Below are positions 25,926-40,197 of a DNA stretch of 49,967 bases, in pieces. Origin of the DNA: Bacteroidota bacterium (GTDB lineage: Bacteria; Bacteroidota; Ignavibacteria; UBA10030; UBA8401). The notes beneath the pieces are model-generated. The model had not been told where the DNA came from. It did not search any database and saw nothing but the letters and a program-made list of their open reading frames with translations. The stretch's first letter is position 1. The number at the start of each line of letters is the position of its first letter. Where the stretch lies: the NCBI GenBank assembly GCA_020052095.1, contig JAGVPT010000164.1, positions 1 to 49,967 of the forward strand. Direction: 5' to 3'. Made by a program: the position numbers and the translations under genes.

Positions 25926-27005
25926 TCACTTCGTCGATTTCTTCGAAGCGGCGGGTTCTGCCTGTTTTGCGGAGGCCGCCGGCTGTTTCTGCGGGGTTTC
26001 AGTTTCCGCAGCCAGACCTAATTTTTTGCGGACAGCGAGGAGGATTTCATCTGCAATCTTTGGTGAGGCGGTGAGATACGTTTTTACTGCATCCCGCCCC
26101 TGACCGATTCGGTCCTCTTTGTACGAGAACCACGAGCCGCTTTTCACGATGATGTTGTGTTCGACCGCGACATCGATCAGATCGCCGAGGCGCGATATTC
26201 CTTCGTTGTATAAAATATCGAACTGCGCTTCGCGGAAGGGGGGCGCCACTTTATTTTTCACAACTTTCACCTTTGTTCGGTTGCCTATGACGTTCGTGCC
26301 GTCTTTGAGCGCTTCGATACGCCGCACGTCCAGTCGGACTGAGGCATAGAATTTCAGAGCATTGCCGCCGGTCGTGGTTTCAGGATTCCCGAACATGATG
26401 CCGATCTTCATACGCAGTTGGTTCGTGAAGATCACAGAGGTCCTCGACTTGCTAATCGCCGCGGTCAATTTCCGCAACGCCTGCGACATCAATCTGGCAT
26501 GCACGCCCATCGTGGGATCACCCATTTCTCCTTCGATCTCCGCCCTCGGCGTCAACGCTGCGACGGAATCGATCACGACAACATCCAATGCGCCGCTGCG
26601 CACGAGGGTCTCGACAATTTCAAGTGCCTGCTCGCCAAATTCCGGTTGTGAGAGAAGGAGATTGTTTGTGTCAACCCCGAGCCGCTTTGCATACGCGATA
26701 TCGAGCGCATGCTCTGCGTCGATGAATGCTGCAAGCCCGCCCGTTTTCTGTGCTTCGGCGATGATATGAAGACATAAAGTCGTCTTGCCCGAAGACTCAG
26801 GCCCGTAGATTTCGGTTACCCTGCCTCGCGGGATTCCGCCGATGCCGAGAGCGGCGTCGAGTGAAATCGAACCGGTTGAGATGAAATCGACTTTCATGAT
26901 CGGACCCTCGCCCAGTCTCATGATCGAACCTTTCCCGTGCTGCTTTTCGATCTGGTCGATTGCGACTTTTAACGCCTGGATCTTTGACTCTTTTTCTTCA
27001 GCCAT
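25926..27005 (-). CDS. recA: Recombinase RecA
   Basis: The central strand-exchange protein and SOS coprotease. Walker A is GPESSGKTT, Walker B is [10 protein letters not shown], and the L2 region begins [34 protein letters not shown]. The length is 359 residues with an Ala/Lys/Pro-rich C-terminal tail (about 335-359). The Shine-Dalgarno GGAG overlaps the stop codon of an upstream thpR fragment (27015-27017), so recA was once, or still is, translationally coupled to a thpR end. No LexA-like palindrome is evident in the preceding 150 bp. Confidence 0.98.
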
Positions 27006-27014
27006 AAAGTGCTC

Positions 27015-27152
27015 CTAATGTTTCAAAGTAATAATACGTTGTTTTGAATACGTCGAGCCCGAGGGGGAGAGGTCACTCTTCATGACGAGTAATTCAGTGC
27101 AGGGGAATTTCAATGGTTCAAAGGTAGTATTTTCGATCGTCTTAATCAAGTT
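27015..27152 (-). pseudogene. Detached 3' fragment of thpR next to recA
   Basis: 46 codons including the stop, in the same frame and of exactly the same length as the end of intact thpR (30436-30573). The first 112 bp (27041-27152) match that gene with 3 mismatches. The final eight codons differ (QRIITLKH here, LFTIPFRS in thpR). It has no start and no 5' part; upstream of 27152 similarity to thpR ends. Its stop codon overlaps the recA Shine-Dalgarno. It is best read as the old thpR end cut off by the 3.4-kb insertion at 27153-30573. Confidence 0.85.
27041..27152. repeat. 112-bp direct repeat, copy next to recA
   Basis: Matches 30462-30573 in the same orientation over 112 bp. The only differences are at 27051, 27060 and 27137. 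The two copies are 3,421 bp apart and flank the two T9SS cargo genes. The repeat is the coding end of thpR; all three differences are at synonymous third positions in that frame. Confidence 0.92.
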
Positions 27153-27317
27153 AAAATTTCTTACAAATTTCAGTTGACTTTCAAAAAAAAAAAACGAACA
27201 TTACGGCAGCATTCAAAAGGAGGAACGAATGCAGTACCCACCCGACTATTTTCTACCAGCACAAACATCCATAATATCATATCTATCTTGGGCGTGGGAT
27301 TATTTTCTAAAATAGCT
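27153..27317. other. Left junction and leader of the cargo insert
   Basis: AT-rich sequence from the repeat boundary to the first cargo gene. It contains TTGACT (27175-27180) followed by a run of 12 A residues (27183-27194). TTGACT could be a -35 element but I see no matching -10 at the right distance. No RNA gene or terminator is visible. Confidence 0.4.
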
Positions 27318-28325
27318 ATGAGCCAGTTAAAATATAGTTTATACTTAAGCGTTGTGTTTAGCTCCATAATTGTAGAGCCGCTCCATGCACAGCTTGTTGA
27401 CACCCTGTTCAGTGTATCGCGCTTAGACGGTGATATTACGTTTTGGTACTTGGATAGCGGTTATTTCGTCTCGACAAGGTCTTCTGAGATAGTAACAGGC
27501 GATGGAAGAGACTGGGATCATCAACCAAATTTTTATCGTGGCTATATTGCGTTCGACTTAAAAACAACAAGTACAGATACAATTCAATATCGTTTAGTCA
27601 GTGCAATCGTAGGAATCTATCAAATACGATCTGTGGGCGATGACACGCTTGGGAAATTCCCTGTTTTCAAGGAATCTTACAGCTTTCCTTGCATCTTAGA
27701 CCATGTAGATTATGGCGATACTCTCAATTGGCTCGATTGGGAAGCGGGAGATATTGGTAACCCTAAGACAATTTGTTCACGTATAGGGTCAATCTCAACA
27801 ACAGCCACACTTGAATACAAAACAATGGCGGTGACTGATCATGTCTTGGAGGACTTAAGAGCAGGAACAAGGTATACCCAATTTCGTATTCGATTTCCGG
27901 TCGACCATGATAATGATTTACTACAAGATCTTTTGATGTTTGCAGCAACTGATGGAAGTCCACCACAACAGCATCTAGCTTCGCCTTTTCTTCGATTGGA
28001 ATGGGGTAAAGTGCAGTCGGTCGGTAAAACGAACGAACACGGGATATCTTCATTTATACTTCATCAGAATTATCCGAACCCGTTTAACAATGAGACGAAA
28101 ATTGAATTTGAAGTTCCTAAACCGGGCAAGGTAACATTCTCTATTTACAATACTCTGGGCGAACTGATACGAAAGGAGGTGAATGAATTTCAGAGTCAAG
28201 GAATGTATGTACTAAGTTGGAATGGAAAGGATGAACGCGGTAAAGCCGTTGCAAGTAGTGTATACTTTGGTAAGCTTACTTTTGGTGAGGAAAACAGATA
28301 TGTAAAAATGATATTACTAAAATAG
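27318..28325 (+). CDS. Secreted protein with type IX secretion C-terminal sorting domain
   Basis: About 335 residues. The likely start is ATG 27318, giving a signal peptide (SQLKYSLYLSVVFSSIIVEPLHA). An upstream extension to 27174 would lack one. The central 200 residues are an all-beta-looking region (RGYIAFDLKTTSTDTIQYRLVSAIVGIYQ) that is vaguely like DNRLRE/carbohydrate-binding modules, but I cannot assign it firmly. The last 75 residues are a type A T9SS sorting domain (HQNYPNPFNNETKIEFEVP, GELIRKEV, GMYVLSWNGKD, SSVYFGKL). It should be exported, cleaved and anchored or released at the surface. AT-rich relative to its neighbours and located in a 3.4-kb insert bounded by direct repeats, so probably acquired. 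Confidence 0.75.
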   Translation: MSQLKYSLYLSVVFSSIIVEPLHAQLVDTLFSVSRLDGDITFWYLDSGYFVSTRSSEIVTGDGRDWDHQPNFYRGYIAFDLKTTSTDTIQYRLVSAIVGIYQIRSVGDDTLGKFPVFKESYSFPCILDHVDYGDTLNWLDWEAGDIGNPKTICSRIGSISTTATLEYKTMAVTDHVLEDLRAGTRYTQFRIRFPVDHDNDLLQDLLMFAATDGSPPQQHLASPFLRLEWGKVQSVGKTNEHGISSFILHQNYPNPFNNETKIEFEVPKPGKVTFSIYNTLGELIRKEVNEFQSQGMYVLSWNGKDERGKAVASSVYFGKLTFGEENRYVKMILLK

Positions 28326-28377
28326 TAAGCATAACTGACAAATGAAAATTCATAGACTAAAATATTGTGGGGTTCCT

Positions 28378-30360
28378 ATGAAAAAGTCCTTTGTTGTACT
28401 TCTCGTCATCAATCTTCTGTTTTCTTTTGGTATGTTCGGTCAAGAAGACATTACCTATCAAAGCGGAGTCATTTTAGTGAAGACTGTTCAACCGCTTCAA
28501 ATTACTAAACAAAACGGAGCGGCGAATACGGATCTGCCCTCGCTCAATGACGTTCTCAAGCAATATAACGTTTCTGAAATTAGACCTATTTTTTCAAAGA
28601 CAACCGGTACAATGGCAACATTTTACAGAGTGAATTTTCCCAAGACGGCTTCTGTACAAACGGTAAAGAACGCTTTGAAGAATAAAACAGGTATAGAAAA
28701 AGTATGGGAAAGCGCCATTGGAAAATATAGCAGCGTCCCAAGCGATCCATTGTATAACTCAAACCAATGGGCTTTACAAAAGATAAAAGCAGACCAAGCA
28801 TGGTCAATCAAATCAGGTAATCCGTCTATCATTGTTGGTGTTATTGATTCGGGCGTTGATTTAGGAGACCCAATCGTGCCGGATATTGCCGACCCACATC
28901 CCGATTTAGTTGGGAACTTATGGAATGTGAATTCGATGTACGGATACGATGTTATTTATCCCTATCTCTACCCAAAAGATGAACGAACAAATGGCGGGCA
29001 CGGAACACCGGTTGCTGGTATCATTGGTGCGACAACAAATAATGGAATTGGTGTCGCCGGATTAGCAGGTGGAGGCTTTCGAGGTGAAAGTGGTGTGAAA
29101 CTAATGACGGTAAAAATTAGTTCAGGTCAAGTTGAGCCACTTGAACCTGACGCTGCCGCAGGTATTGAGTGGGCAGTTGACCATGGAGCAAAAGTATTAA
29201 ATATGAGCTTTGGATTTCCGCAACGTGTAACTGATGATGGCGAGGCAATTACTTACGATCCGCCTATGGCTGCTCTCCAAGCAGCTATTACGTACGCCTA
29301 TAGTAACGGAGTTACAATGGTGGCGGCAATAGGTAATGAACACCGAGATGAGAGTTATACCCCTGGAATGCCTCGTTGGACCCGAACCTTACCTGCTGCA
29401 TACACCGCGAATGTTATCTCGGTTGCAGCCTTAAATTCTAATGATGTGAAAGGTGGTTACTCAAACTATGCTAACTGGTGTACTATTAGTGCACCCGGAG
29501 GCGAGGCTGGAATTGACATTGGCATTTGGACAACCGCGCCGCGTTATCAAATCTCCTCAGGTTACCAAGGCAAAGCTGCAACTTCCTATGCTGTTCCGTT
29601 GGTAACAGGGTTGGCAGCACTCATTTTGTCATACAATCCGGCTGTTTCGCCTGCAACGGTAAAAAATATTATCACGCAAACAGCGGACGATATTTCAGCA
29701 CAGAACCCAGGTCTGTTAGGTAAACTTGGCGCAGGGAGAATAAATGCGGCAACAGCCTTGCAATATCTTGCACCGCCTGCTTCTCCGGGCAATTTATCAT
29801 ATACAGTTGTGAGTAGTCACCCAAGATTATTGTGGGATGCAAATACGGAATACGATATTGCGCGTTACGATATCTACCGCGATCTTGGTAGCGGGTTTAC
29901 AAAAATAGGATCAGTCAACAAGCCTCAAACTTATTACGATGATTATGACTTGTACATTGGTTATGATTATTTCTACTCGGCATTTTATTACGTGAAAGCA
30001 GTTGACCAATCGAATCTTGAATCTCCCGAGTCGGATTATTTACGTGTGTGGTACGACGGCCTCTATAAAAAACAGTTGGCTGAGATTGAACTACCGAAAG
30101 AGTTTTCGATAGGACAAAATTATCCAAATCCTTTCAATCCGACTACAACCATTAAATATGGTATTCCTGACGCAAGCAATGTTACACTCCAAATATATGA
30201 TATGCTTGGCAGAGAAGCAAAAGAACTTGTGAACAAGGAGCAACAGCCAGGGTACTACACTGTTACATTTGATGCGGCGAATTTTCCAAGCGGTGTTTAT
30301 TTCTGTAAGTTGCAAGCAGGTCACTATGTCAACATAAAGAAGATGATTTTGCAGAGATAA
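28378..30360 (+). CDS. Secreted subtilisin-like serine protease (S8) with T9SS sorting domain
   Basis: About 660 residues. Signal peptide MKKSFVVLLVINLLFSFGMFG, then an inhibitor-like propeptide (about 25-110). The S8 catalytic domain has Asp157 (VIDSGVD), His208 (GGHGTPVAG), oxyanion Asn in AAIGNE, and Ser403 in AATSYAVPLVTG, a variant of the usual GTSMATPHVAG. Then follow a fibronectin-III-like domain (about 465-560) and a type A sorting domain (QNYPNPFNPTTTIKYGIP to the end). Start ATG 28378 matches the signal peptide; an in-frame ATG at 28342 would add 12 residues before it. It lies 52 bp after the other cargo gene; both are in the direct-repeat-bounded insert. Followed by an intrinsic terminator. 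Confidence 0.93.
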   Translation: MKKSFVVLLVINLLFSFGMFGQEDITYQSGVILVKTVQPLQITKQNGAANTDLPSLNDVLKQYNVSEIRPIFSKTTGTMATFYRVNFPKTASVQTVKNALKNKTGIEKVWESAIGKYSSVPSDPLYNSNQWALQKIKADQAWSIKSGNPSIIVGVIDSGVDLGDPIVPDIADPHPDLVGNLWNVNSMYGYDVIYPYLYPKDERTNGGHGTPVAGIIGATTNNGIGVAGLAGGGFRGESGVKLMTVKISSGQVEPLEPDAAAGIEWAVDHGAKVLNMSFGFPQRVTDDGEAITYDPPMAALQAAITYAYSNGVTMVAAIGNEHRDESYTPGMPRWTRTLPAAYTANVISVAALNSNDVKGGYSNYANWCTISAPGGEAGIDIGIWTTAPRYQISSGYQGKAATSYAVPLVTGLAALILSYNPAVSPATVKNIITQTADDISAQNPGLLGKLGAGRINAATALQYLAPPASPGNLSYTVVSSHPRLLWDANTEYDIARYDIYRDLGSGFTKIGSVNKPQTYYDDYDLYIGYDYFYSAFYYVKAVDQSNLESPESDYLRVWYDGLYKKQLAEIELPKEFSIGQNYPNPFNPTTTIKYGIPDASNVTLQIYDMLGREAKELVNKEQQPGYYTVTFDAANFPSGVYFCKLQAGHYVNIKKMILQR

Positions 30361-30388
30361 TGAATTGAGATTTCTGTAAATTCAAAAC

Positions 30389-30437
30389 AGGTGTTGGACA
30401 CCTTTTAACTTAAGAGGAGTCCGACACCTTCTTTTTT
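30389..30437 (+). terminator. Intrinsic terminator after the S8 protease, related to the REP palindromes
   Basis: An 18-bp stem with one mismatch. AGGTGTTGGACACC begins at 30389 and pairs with the arm ending GTCCGACACCT at 30429, loop AACTT (30407-30411), then TCTTTTTTA. The GGACACC/GTCCGACACC arms resemble the REP core around the RAYT at 4.8-5.6 kb. The T-run touches the thpR stop codon, so the hairpin may also serve the converging thpR transcript. Confidence 0.8.
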
Positions 30438-31020
30438 ATGATCGGAACGGGATTGTAAAGAGTTTTGAATAGGTCGAGCCTGAGGGGGAGAGGTCACTCT
30501 TCATGACGAGTAATTCAGTGCAGGGGAATTTCAATGGTTCAAAGGTAGTATTTTCGATTGTCTTAATCAAGTTTCCGGAAATTTTTCCTCTACGAGGTCG
30601 TAGACCTTTCACTCTGCCGAGTGTAATATGAGGGTGGAATGCCCGTTCGTCTTTTTTAAATCCGGCCTCCGCACACGTCTCTTCCACTGCCCCGAAACAT
30701 CTGCTTAGATCTAGGTTATCACTTGGTTGTGAACCGATCCAGACTATTTTTGGAGCATGCACGCTGGGGAAACAACCGACGCTGAGGAGCGTAATTTCAA
30801 AAGGGGAAATTGTTTCAGCCGCCGCCTTGAGAAGTGCTTGGAGCTGTCCGAGTTGCTTTTCGGCGACGTCTCCTAAGAACTTTACGGTGATATGAAATTT
30901 GTTTTGAGATTCCCAGCGGACAAGGGAGTTATCCCCTTTAAACGTCGACTGAATAGCCGCGATCGTTCTTTGAATTTCAGGCGGGGGGAAAATGCCTATG
31001 AATGTGCGAAGGCCTTTCAT
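30436..31020 (-). CDS. thpR: RNA 2',3'-cyclic phosphodiesterase (2'-5' RNA ligase family)
   Basis: A 2H phosphoesterase of 194 residues. The two HxTx motifs are HITVKFLG (about residue 45) and HITLGRVK (about residue 130). The family opens 2',3'-cyclic phosphates on RNA; its physiological role is not settled. It lies 6 bp after cinA. The last 46 codons, from 30573, include one copy of a 112-bp repeat whose partner is adjacent to recA, so the present 3' end was either brought in or regenerated by the insertion. The C-terminus LFTIPF fits the family better than the tail of the detached copy. Confidence 0.93.
   Translation of the reverse strand: MKGLRTFIGIFPPPEIQRTIAAIQSTFKGDNSLVRWESQNKFHITVKFLGDVAEKQLGQLQALLKAAAETISPFEITLLSVGCFPSVHAPKIVWIGSQPSDNLDLSRCFGAVEETCAEAGFKKDERAFHPHITLGRVKGLRPRRGKISGNLIKTIENTTFEPLKFPCTELLVMKSDLSPSGSTYSKLFTIPFRS
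30462..30573. repeat. 112-bp direct repeat, copy inside thpR
   Basis: Partner of 27041-27152. It forms the 3' coding end of thpR. Recombination between the two copies would excise a 3,421-bp circle carrying the two T9SS cargo genes and restore a thpR-recA junction. Confidence 0.92.
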
Positions 31021-39285: not shown

Positions 39286-40197
39286 ATGAAAACGTCGCAA
39301 TTCCCTTCTGTACGTATACCTTACCAGCGATTGCTTGGTTACCATGAAGGGTTTTTGAGAGAACTACGGAAGTGCAAGCCCGAGACACGCGGGACGTACG
39401 AACGTTCGCTGCGGGAGTTTTTCCGGTGGTATCCGTCGGACAAGAAATTTCAATTTCGCGTCGTCGACGTTGAGCGGTACAAGAATCATCTCACCAAGAA
39501 GAGAAAATTATCGCCGGTTTCTGTTTCAACGTACTTGACTGCCTTGCGGCGCTTCTGCGATTATTTGGTCGACATCAATGCACTCAAAGGGAACCCTGCG
39601 AAAGAGGTCAAGGGAAATAAAAGGCCGCAAGAGCACTCACGTGAAACAATTACGGCTCAGGATGTGCGTGCGATTTATCAGGCAATAGACAGGGTTGACG
39701 AGCGAGGCTTCCGGGATTTTGCGATAATAAAGGCGATGGTTGTCTGCGGGTTGTCTGAGATCGAATTAATCCGGGCCGACATCGGCGATTTGAAGACGAT
39801 TAGTTCATCAATGGTTTTTTACGTGCAAGGAAAAGGGAAAACGACGAAAGACACGGCCGTCATTTTCCCCAACGATGTGAAAGAAGCTTTCCAGGGCTAT
39901 CTCGCATTTCGGAATGAGGCCGACGGCGATGAACCATTGATCATGAGCGCTGGAAATCGAACTCGCGGAAAACGCATGACGACGCGCGGAATTCGTGAGC
40001 GTGTGAACTTGTACCTCGAAAAAGCCGGAGTGAAGAACGGAAAATCTCGACGCATCACGGCATTCTCCCTGCGTCACACCGCAGCAACGATGATGGCTGA
40101 TAACGGAGCGACTGTGGAAGAACTGCAATCTCGTTTTCGCATCGGTACTGCGAATACGGCGATGCTGTACATAAAGAAACTTAGCGATGATCAATGA
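39286..40197 (+). CDS. Xer-like tyrosine recombinase with altered active site
   Basis: 303 residues with an N-terminal SAM-like core-binding domain (about 12-105, GTYERSLREFFRWY, VSTYLTALRRFCDYLVD) and a C-terminal tyrosine-recombinase domain. The tyrosine is present (Tyr295 in MLYIKK), as is the second arginine (Arg263 in SLRHTAATM). Three other canonical residues are changed. The first arginine of GLR is Ser157 (CGLSEIEL), the His of HxLR is Phe260, and the LGH histidine nine residues before Tyr is Ile286. It may be a chromosomal XerC/D relative with divergent chemistry, or a recombinase that now only binds DNA. It sits alone between two heptamer arrays, upstream of leuS. The last codons are inside one of these arrays. 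Confidence 0.85.
   Translation: MKTSQFPSVRIPYQRLLGYHEGFLRELRKCKPETRGTYERSLREFFRWYPSDKKFQFRVVDVERYKNHLTKKRKLSPVSVSTYLTALRRFCDYLVDINALKGNPAKEVKGNKRPQEHSRETITAQDVRAIYQAIDRVDERGFRDFAIIKAMVVCGLSEIELIRADIGDLKTISSSMVFYVQGKGKTTKDTAVIFPNDVKEAFQGYLAFRNEADGDEPLIMSAGNRTRGKRMTTRGIRERVNLYLEKAGVKNGKSRRITAFSLRHTAATMMADNGATVEELQSRFRIGTANTAMLYIKKLSDDQ

Follow-up and report, generated by a model that had tools for sequence, protein, structure and literature searches.

The duplicated thpR end and its neighborhood

The window, i.e., the entire 49,967-nt stretch of contig JAGVPT010000164.1 analyzed here, comes from a Bacteroidota genome (GenBank assembly GCA_020052095.1, a 281-contig draft with a contamination level of 2.5%) and raises the question of why the 3′ end of a protein-coding gene, thpR, is found on both sides of two genes for secreted proteins. 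The gene order on the minus strand is pgsA-pgpA-cinA-thpR-insert-recA-recX-permease genes, with recA at positions 25926 to 27005 and an intact thpR at positions 30436 to 31020. The latter encodes a 194-residue RNA 2′,3′-cyclic phosphodiesterase that matches the LigT (Pfam) and 2_5_ligase (NCBIfam) models. A sequence-only reading of this DNA had described two direct repeats with three mismatches, and both the exact coordinates and the mismatch count were confirmed: the 112-nt copies at 27041 to 27152 and 30462 to 30573 are identical in 109 of 112 positions (blastn E value of 3.6e-48) and are the only two found in a whole-genome search of the 3.9-Mb draft assembly. The right copy (30462 to 30573, minus strand), which extends from thpR codons AAC TTG ATT to TCA AAA C, is indeed the real thpR 3′ end, as it closes the intact ThpR. 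The left copy (27041 to 27152, minus strand) is, again as first described, a thpR fragment in the same frame that lacks the 5′ part of the gene and has no start codon; its stop codon (27015 to 27017) shares 1 nt with the GGAG of the recA Shine-Dalgarno sequence. All three mismatches are synonymous (expected at 22% each; P of about 0.01), so both copies probably descend from functional thpR ends.

The unique segment between the repeats (27153 to 30461; 3,309 bp) carries two genes on the strand opposite to that of thpR and recA, and domain matches bear out their earlier description as type IX secretion system (T9SS) cargo genes, one of them a subtilase. Cargo gene 1 (27318 to 28325, plus strand) encodes a secreted protein with a C-terminal T9SS sorting domain; its open reading frame (ORF) has the first TTG at 27174, but translation probably starts from the ATG at 27318, ahead of the signal peptide. 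Cargo gene 2 (28342 to 30360, plus strand) encodes a secreted subtilase (Peptidase_S8) with a C-terminal T9SS type A sorting domain and is followed by a terminator-like hairpin with a T run (30389 to 30438, plus strand; folding energy of −25.3 kcal/mol, z-score of −6.3). The segment is, as had been noted, richer in AT than its surroundings, with a GC content of 0.37 to 0.48 versus mostly 0.46 to 0.54 on either side. Close relatives of either cargo gene were absent from the 60 related genomes searched. The best matches to the subtilase, which come from other genera, are 37 to 44% identical, and none of them has thpR beside it in the stretches compared. A 28-codon ORF with a good AGGAGG at positions 27229 to 27315, MQYPPDYFLPAQTSIISYLSWAWDYFLK, ends just before the likely start of cargo gene 1 and could possibly encode a leader peptide.

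Empty junctions in related genomes

The ancestral arrangement can be judged from comparisons that cover one genome per species. In a genus mate (G001) and in seven further genomes of the family (G002, G004, G007, G009, G010, G012, and G015), the end of thpR lies at most 14 nt from the start of recA or slightly overlaps it, and the gene order in G001 is that of the window from argH through leuS wherever the two were compared. These adjoining thpR-recA pairs identify the 3.3-kb segment, by gene-order comparison, as an insertion into an ancestral thpR-recA arrangement, in agreement with the order assumed in the sequence-only reading. The comparison of junctions suggested there thus yielded empty sites, and the arrangement named there as contrary to an insertion, relatives with both cargo genes but no repeats, was not seen, the segment itself being missing in relatives. 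Repeats of the thpR end were absent from the corresponding loci of 20 relatives, and a scan of genome contigs returned only a distant spirochaete ThpR.

A likely recA promoter inside thpR

The repeat begins with AACTTGATTAAG, and the box TACCTTTG follows 20 nt past its TTG. The motif TTG-N20-TAnnTTTG thereby lies within thpR codons, with the edge of the repeat 3 nt upstream of the TTG. TAnnTTTG is the −7 box recognized by sigma-A in flavobacteria (PMC9723704), and the left copy matches the full Bacteroidota sigma-A pattern of a TTG, 19 to 21 nt, and TAnnTTTG, with a candidate −33 TTG at 27147 to 27149 and a candidate −7 box at 27119 to 27126 (both minus strand). As in the promoter described in PMC9723704, the TTG is found 20 nt upstream of the −7 box; in contrast to that promoter, the one predicted here falls within the 3′ coding part of the gene ahead of it. 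This relation of the repeat edge to a Bacteroidota-type promoter motif inside thpR codons had not been part of the sequence-only reading.

The motif is conserved throughout the order. The Leu codon at its start is TTG in 32 of the 33 thpR genes, the exception being that of G013, while TTG makes up 14% of the other Leu codons in the same genes. T27-A28 and T31-T32 are invariant, the invariant wobble positions include the G of TTG and the T of TA, and Thr-to-Lys/Asn changes are confined to the free ‘nn’ of TAnnTTTG. The G013 thpR gene, which lacks the motif, is also the only one without recA beside it in its contig. Three genomes of genus g3 (G003, G016, and G011) have no detectable thpR but carry CTTGATTCAGA...TTACTTT(G/C) just upstream of recA, directly after cinA. 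Families f2 to f4 have recA at a distance of 420 to 1,021 nt from thpR, in several cases with an apparent receiver-domain gene in between, and yet retain the TTG and TA..TTT; there, the motif may serve another gene first. In the genome under study, 14 forward and 5 reverse instances of TTG-N18-21-TAnnTTTG were found upstream of genes, compared with 2 in shuffled sequences, and the spacing from TTG to box peaks at 20. The counts of motif conservation ignore shared ancestry and are inflated by it; the pattern (constraint at wobble positions, changes in the free positions, persistence after gene loss) is independent of the exact probability. It points to a recA promoter embedded in the 3′ coding part of thpR, with the recA start following after about 145 nt in this family. 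The last thpR codons would then share their DNA with the promoter and leader of recA, and the 112 bp would probably serve thpR as its coding end and recA as its promoter, with a second copy of the motif in the right repeat and, in the left one, the likely promoter and leader retained ahead of recA.

The same gene neighborhood is represented by the cinA-ligT(thpR)-recA operon of Deinococcus, as cited in PMC3025348. The difference is that here recA has a likely promoter of its own inside thpR.

Two tails of different origin

The two copies continue into unrelated ends, which were scored with a position-specific scoring matrix built from the ThpR tails of relatives. The left tail (27015 to 27040, minus strand), QRIITLKH plus the stop codon, scores 2.7 bits, below the ThpR tail of every relative. 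Its length and its TAGGAG junction with recA are identical to those of G001, which identifies it, by comparison with this genus mate, as the ancestral thpR end. The right tail (30436 to 30461, minus strand), LFTIPFRS plus the stop codon, scores 13.5 bits, a value reached by 5 of 775,129 random 8-mers, which rules out a run of chance codons. By this score it is a genuine ThpR C terminus, with an origin different from that of the left tail. It resembles the tails in other genera of the family, such as those of G004 (LFTIPLK) and G007 (LYTIPLK), and also that of G009. The earlier proposal that an intact thpR was regenerated upon insertion is therefore borne out at the sequence level, with the addition that the duplicated gene received a functional-looking C terminus from elsewhere.

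A second case of the same edge

In G002, which belongs to another genus, thpR (L038 6590-7282, G002:C19) is chimeric. Its body, which is foreign and closest to that of G009 (58% identity), shares only 45 to 47% identity with those of its own genus; in the last 37 codons before the tail, which correspond to the repeat segment, identity to its own genus reaches 95%. The junction falls at or within a few codons of the edge AACTTGAT, and cinA was not found in the G002 genome. Judging from these identities, G002 is another case of this edge that arose independently, in which the upstream DNA changes and the likely promoter stays. That AACTTGAT is a recurrent splice point for foreign DNA upstream of recA in this family, used in this genome and in G002 either through the trans action of an unrecognized site-specific recombinase or through homologous exchange on repeated occasions, is a tentative suggestion that we regard as rather unlikely.

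Other features of thpR genes were also seen. The window's ThpR has six extra residues (30587 to 30606), not found in the aligned family members; they are encoded by two overlapping palindromes, CCTCTACGAGG and GGTCGTAGACC, which lie upstream of the repeat edge at a distance of about 14 nt. In the ThpR of G010, 9 residues are inserted very close to this position. In G005 (L171, G005:C48 1696-5011), 2.8 kb separate cinA from thpR, which is split over two frames.

Alternative explanations

Integrases, recurrence, and mobile-element relatives are the defining traits of elements like prophage e14, and the sequence-only reading had seen in the insert a site-specific mobile element of this general kind. 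The corresponding version considered here, in which an element attaches at the thpR 3′ end and brings a replacement 3′ end, with its integrase lost or acting in trans, has the anatomy in its favor: the gene end is duplicated and the C terminus replaced by a functional-looking one, just as e14 leaves a 163-bp icd′ duplicate in icd, another protein-coding gene whose last codons come from the incoming DNA (PMC6379469). The genome also encodes five tyrosine recombinases that might act in trans. However, e14 is a prophage, whereas this insert consists of two cargo genes; no integrase or recombinase gene was found within it, all five recombinase genes being outside, and searches for plasmid or phage matches to the insert were negative. 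Recurrence was not observed either: no other cargo was found at this site in relatives, among the 98 genomes of the order, a full ThpR accompanied by a separate 3′ fragment occurs only here, and self-comparison of ∼1.15 Mb of the genome under study, around more than 100 sorted-protein genes, revealed no cargo or gene-end duplications like this one. The repeat edges show no dyad beyond short palindromes, and their position is explained better by the promoter. On this evidence, the mobile-element claim is not supported, and an e14-like element appears unlikely. A target-site duplication made by a transposon was rejected, as the insert contains neither a transposase gene nor terminal inverted repeats.

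The segment could also have come from the other side, through homologous replacement by a whole cargo-promoter-recA stretch from a relative that had lost thpR except for the recA promoter, the stretch being placed beside a resident thpR. Genus g3 has exactly such recA genes, without thpR and with the promoter motif retained, and the left tail is decayed, as a thpR remnant would be. However, the left copy and the resident right copy share 97% identity, and the left one fits G001 at the informative sites, so a very close donor would be needed, and this route seems quite improbable. An assembly artifact or a mixture of strains, which the draft state and the contamination of the assembly might suggest, is very hard to reconcile with the three mismatches that distinguish the copies, the dissimilar tails, the undisrupted reading frames, and the fully preserved ancestral junction beside recA, and we give it hardly any weight.

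Certain candidates came up in these searches and were set aside. The tyrosine recombinase gene in the window (39286 to 40197) was rejected as the integrase of the insert because it is a conserved family gene next to leuS. This XerC/D-related gene is present in a single copy in nearly all family members searched and adjoins leuS in G001 as well; its product, judged by eye, seems to lack the usual first catalytic arginine. Matches to only the C-terminal part of ThpR in G438 and G469 are at contig ends and so do not represent detached fragments. The best candidate from the self-comparison, a 66-bp repeat with 92% identity in L095 (4710-4775 and 8271-8336, G000:C95), proved to be a promoter-like intergenic repeat (TTGACA...TATATC), the second copy of which sits between two sorted-protein genes. 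Elsewhere in the same genome, a perfect 42-bp direct repeat with copies 1.5 kb apart (L141 7740-7781 and 9255-9296; about 15740 and 17255 in G000:C99) looks by eye like a tRNA 3′ end and is possibly the remnant of a tRNA-integrated element. In G031, a member of another family of the order, recA and recX are separated by about 5 kb of repetitive DNA that includes a sorted-protein end (L039 3120-8230).

A proposed promoter overlap and single crossover

A simpler reason for the repeat than a mobile element is that the likely recA promoter is part of what is duplicated: if the shared segment comprises both thpR codons and this promoter, an insertion that spares both genes must carry it twice. We accordingly consider it reasonably probable that the locus reflects such an overlap combined with a single crossover, the identification of the promoter being the firmer part of this reading and the route of entry the weaker one. 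A foreign segment of ∼3.3 kb with two secreted-protein genes would have entered between thpR and recA through one homologous crossover within the 3′ end of thpR. The donor DNA would have carried a thpR end next to the cargo genes and would have been either circularized or joined by homology on one side and illegitimately on the other. The right copy with its new C-terminal tail would then complete thpR, and the left copy, trimmed so that 3 nt remain ahead of the −33 TTG, would have been kept, perhaps under selection, as the recA promoter and leader. This route involves no recombinase-carrying element.

Single-crossover or otherwise homology-assisted acquisition is the route that fits best. In E. 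coli, single crossovers with incoming DNA left direct duplications of 109 to 950 bp of the recipient gene end around the integrated DNA, and no site-specific recombinase was needed (PMC3240628). Foreign DNA between direct duplications of a recipient gene segment, as such integration predicts, is what is observed here. The locus differs from those cases in that the duplicated stretch holds the likely promoter of the neighboring gene and the regenerated gene end carries another tail. A donor with the cargo genes next to a thpR end was not found, the closest subtilase relatives being those 37 to 44% identical. Furthermore, a single crossover with a close relative does not fully explain the abrupt change from a 97% identical repeat to unrelated tails; for this switch, an additional event must be assumed, which may have been gene conversion or a prior recombination on the donor's side.

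Implications

A duplicated gene end that resembles the scar of a mobile element can instead follow from an overlap of coding sequence and promoter. On the promoter-overlap reading, the repeat at this locus would keep both thpR and recA working. The candidate recA promoter, conserved over an order and hidden in the coding end of thpR, can be tested, and is relevant to the annotation of these genomes, to the genetics of these bacteria, and to the judgment of ‘attachment sites’ proposed in protein-coding genes.
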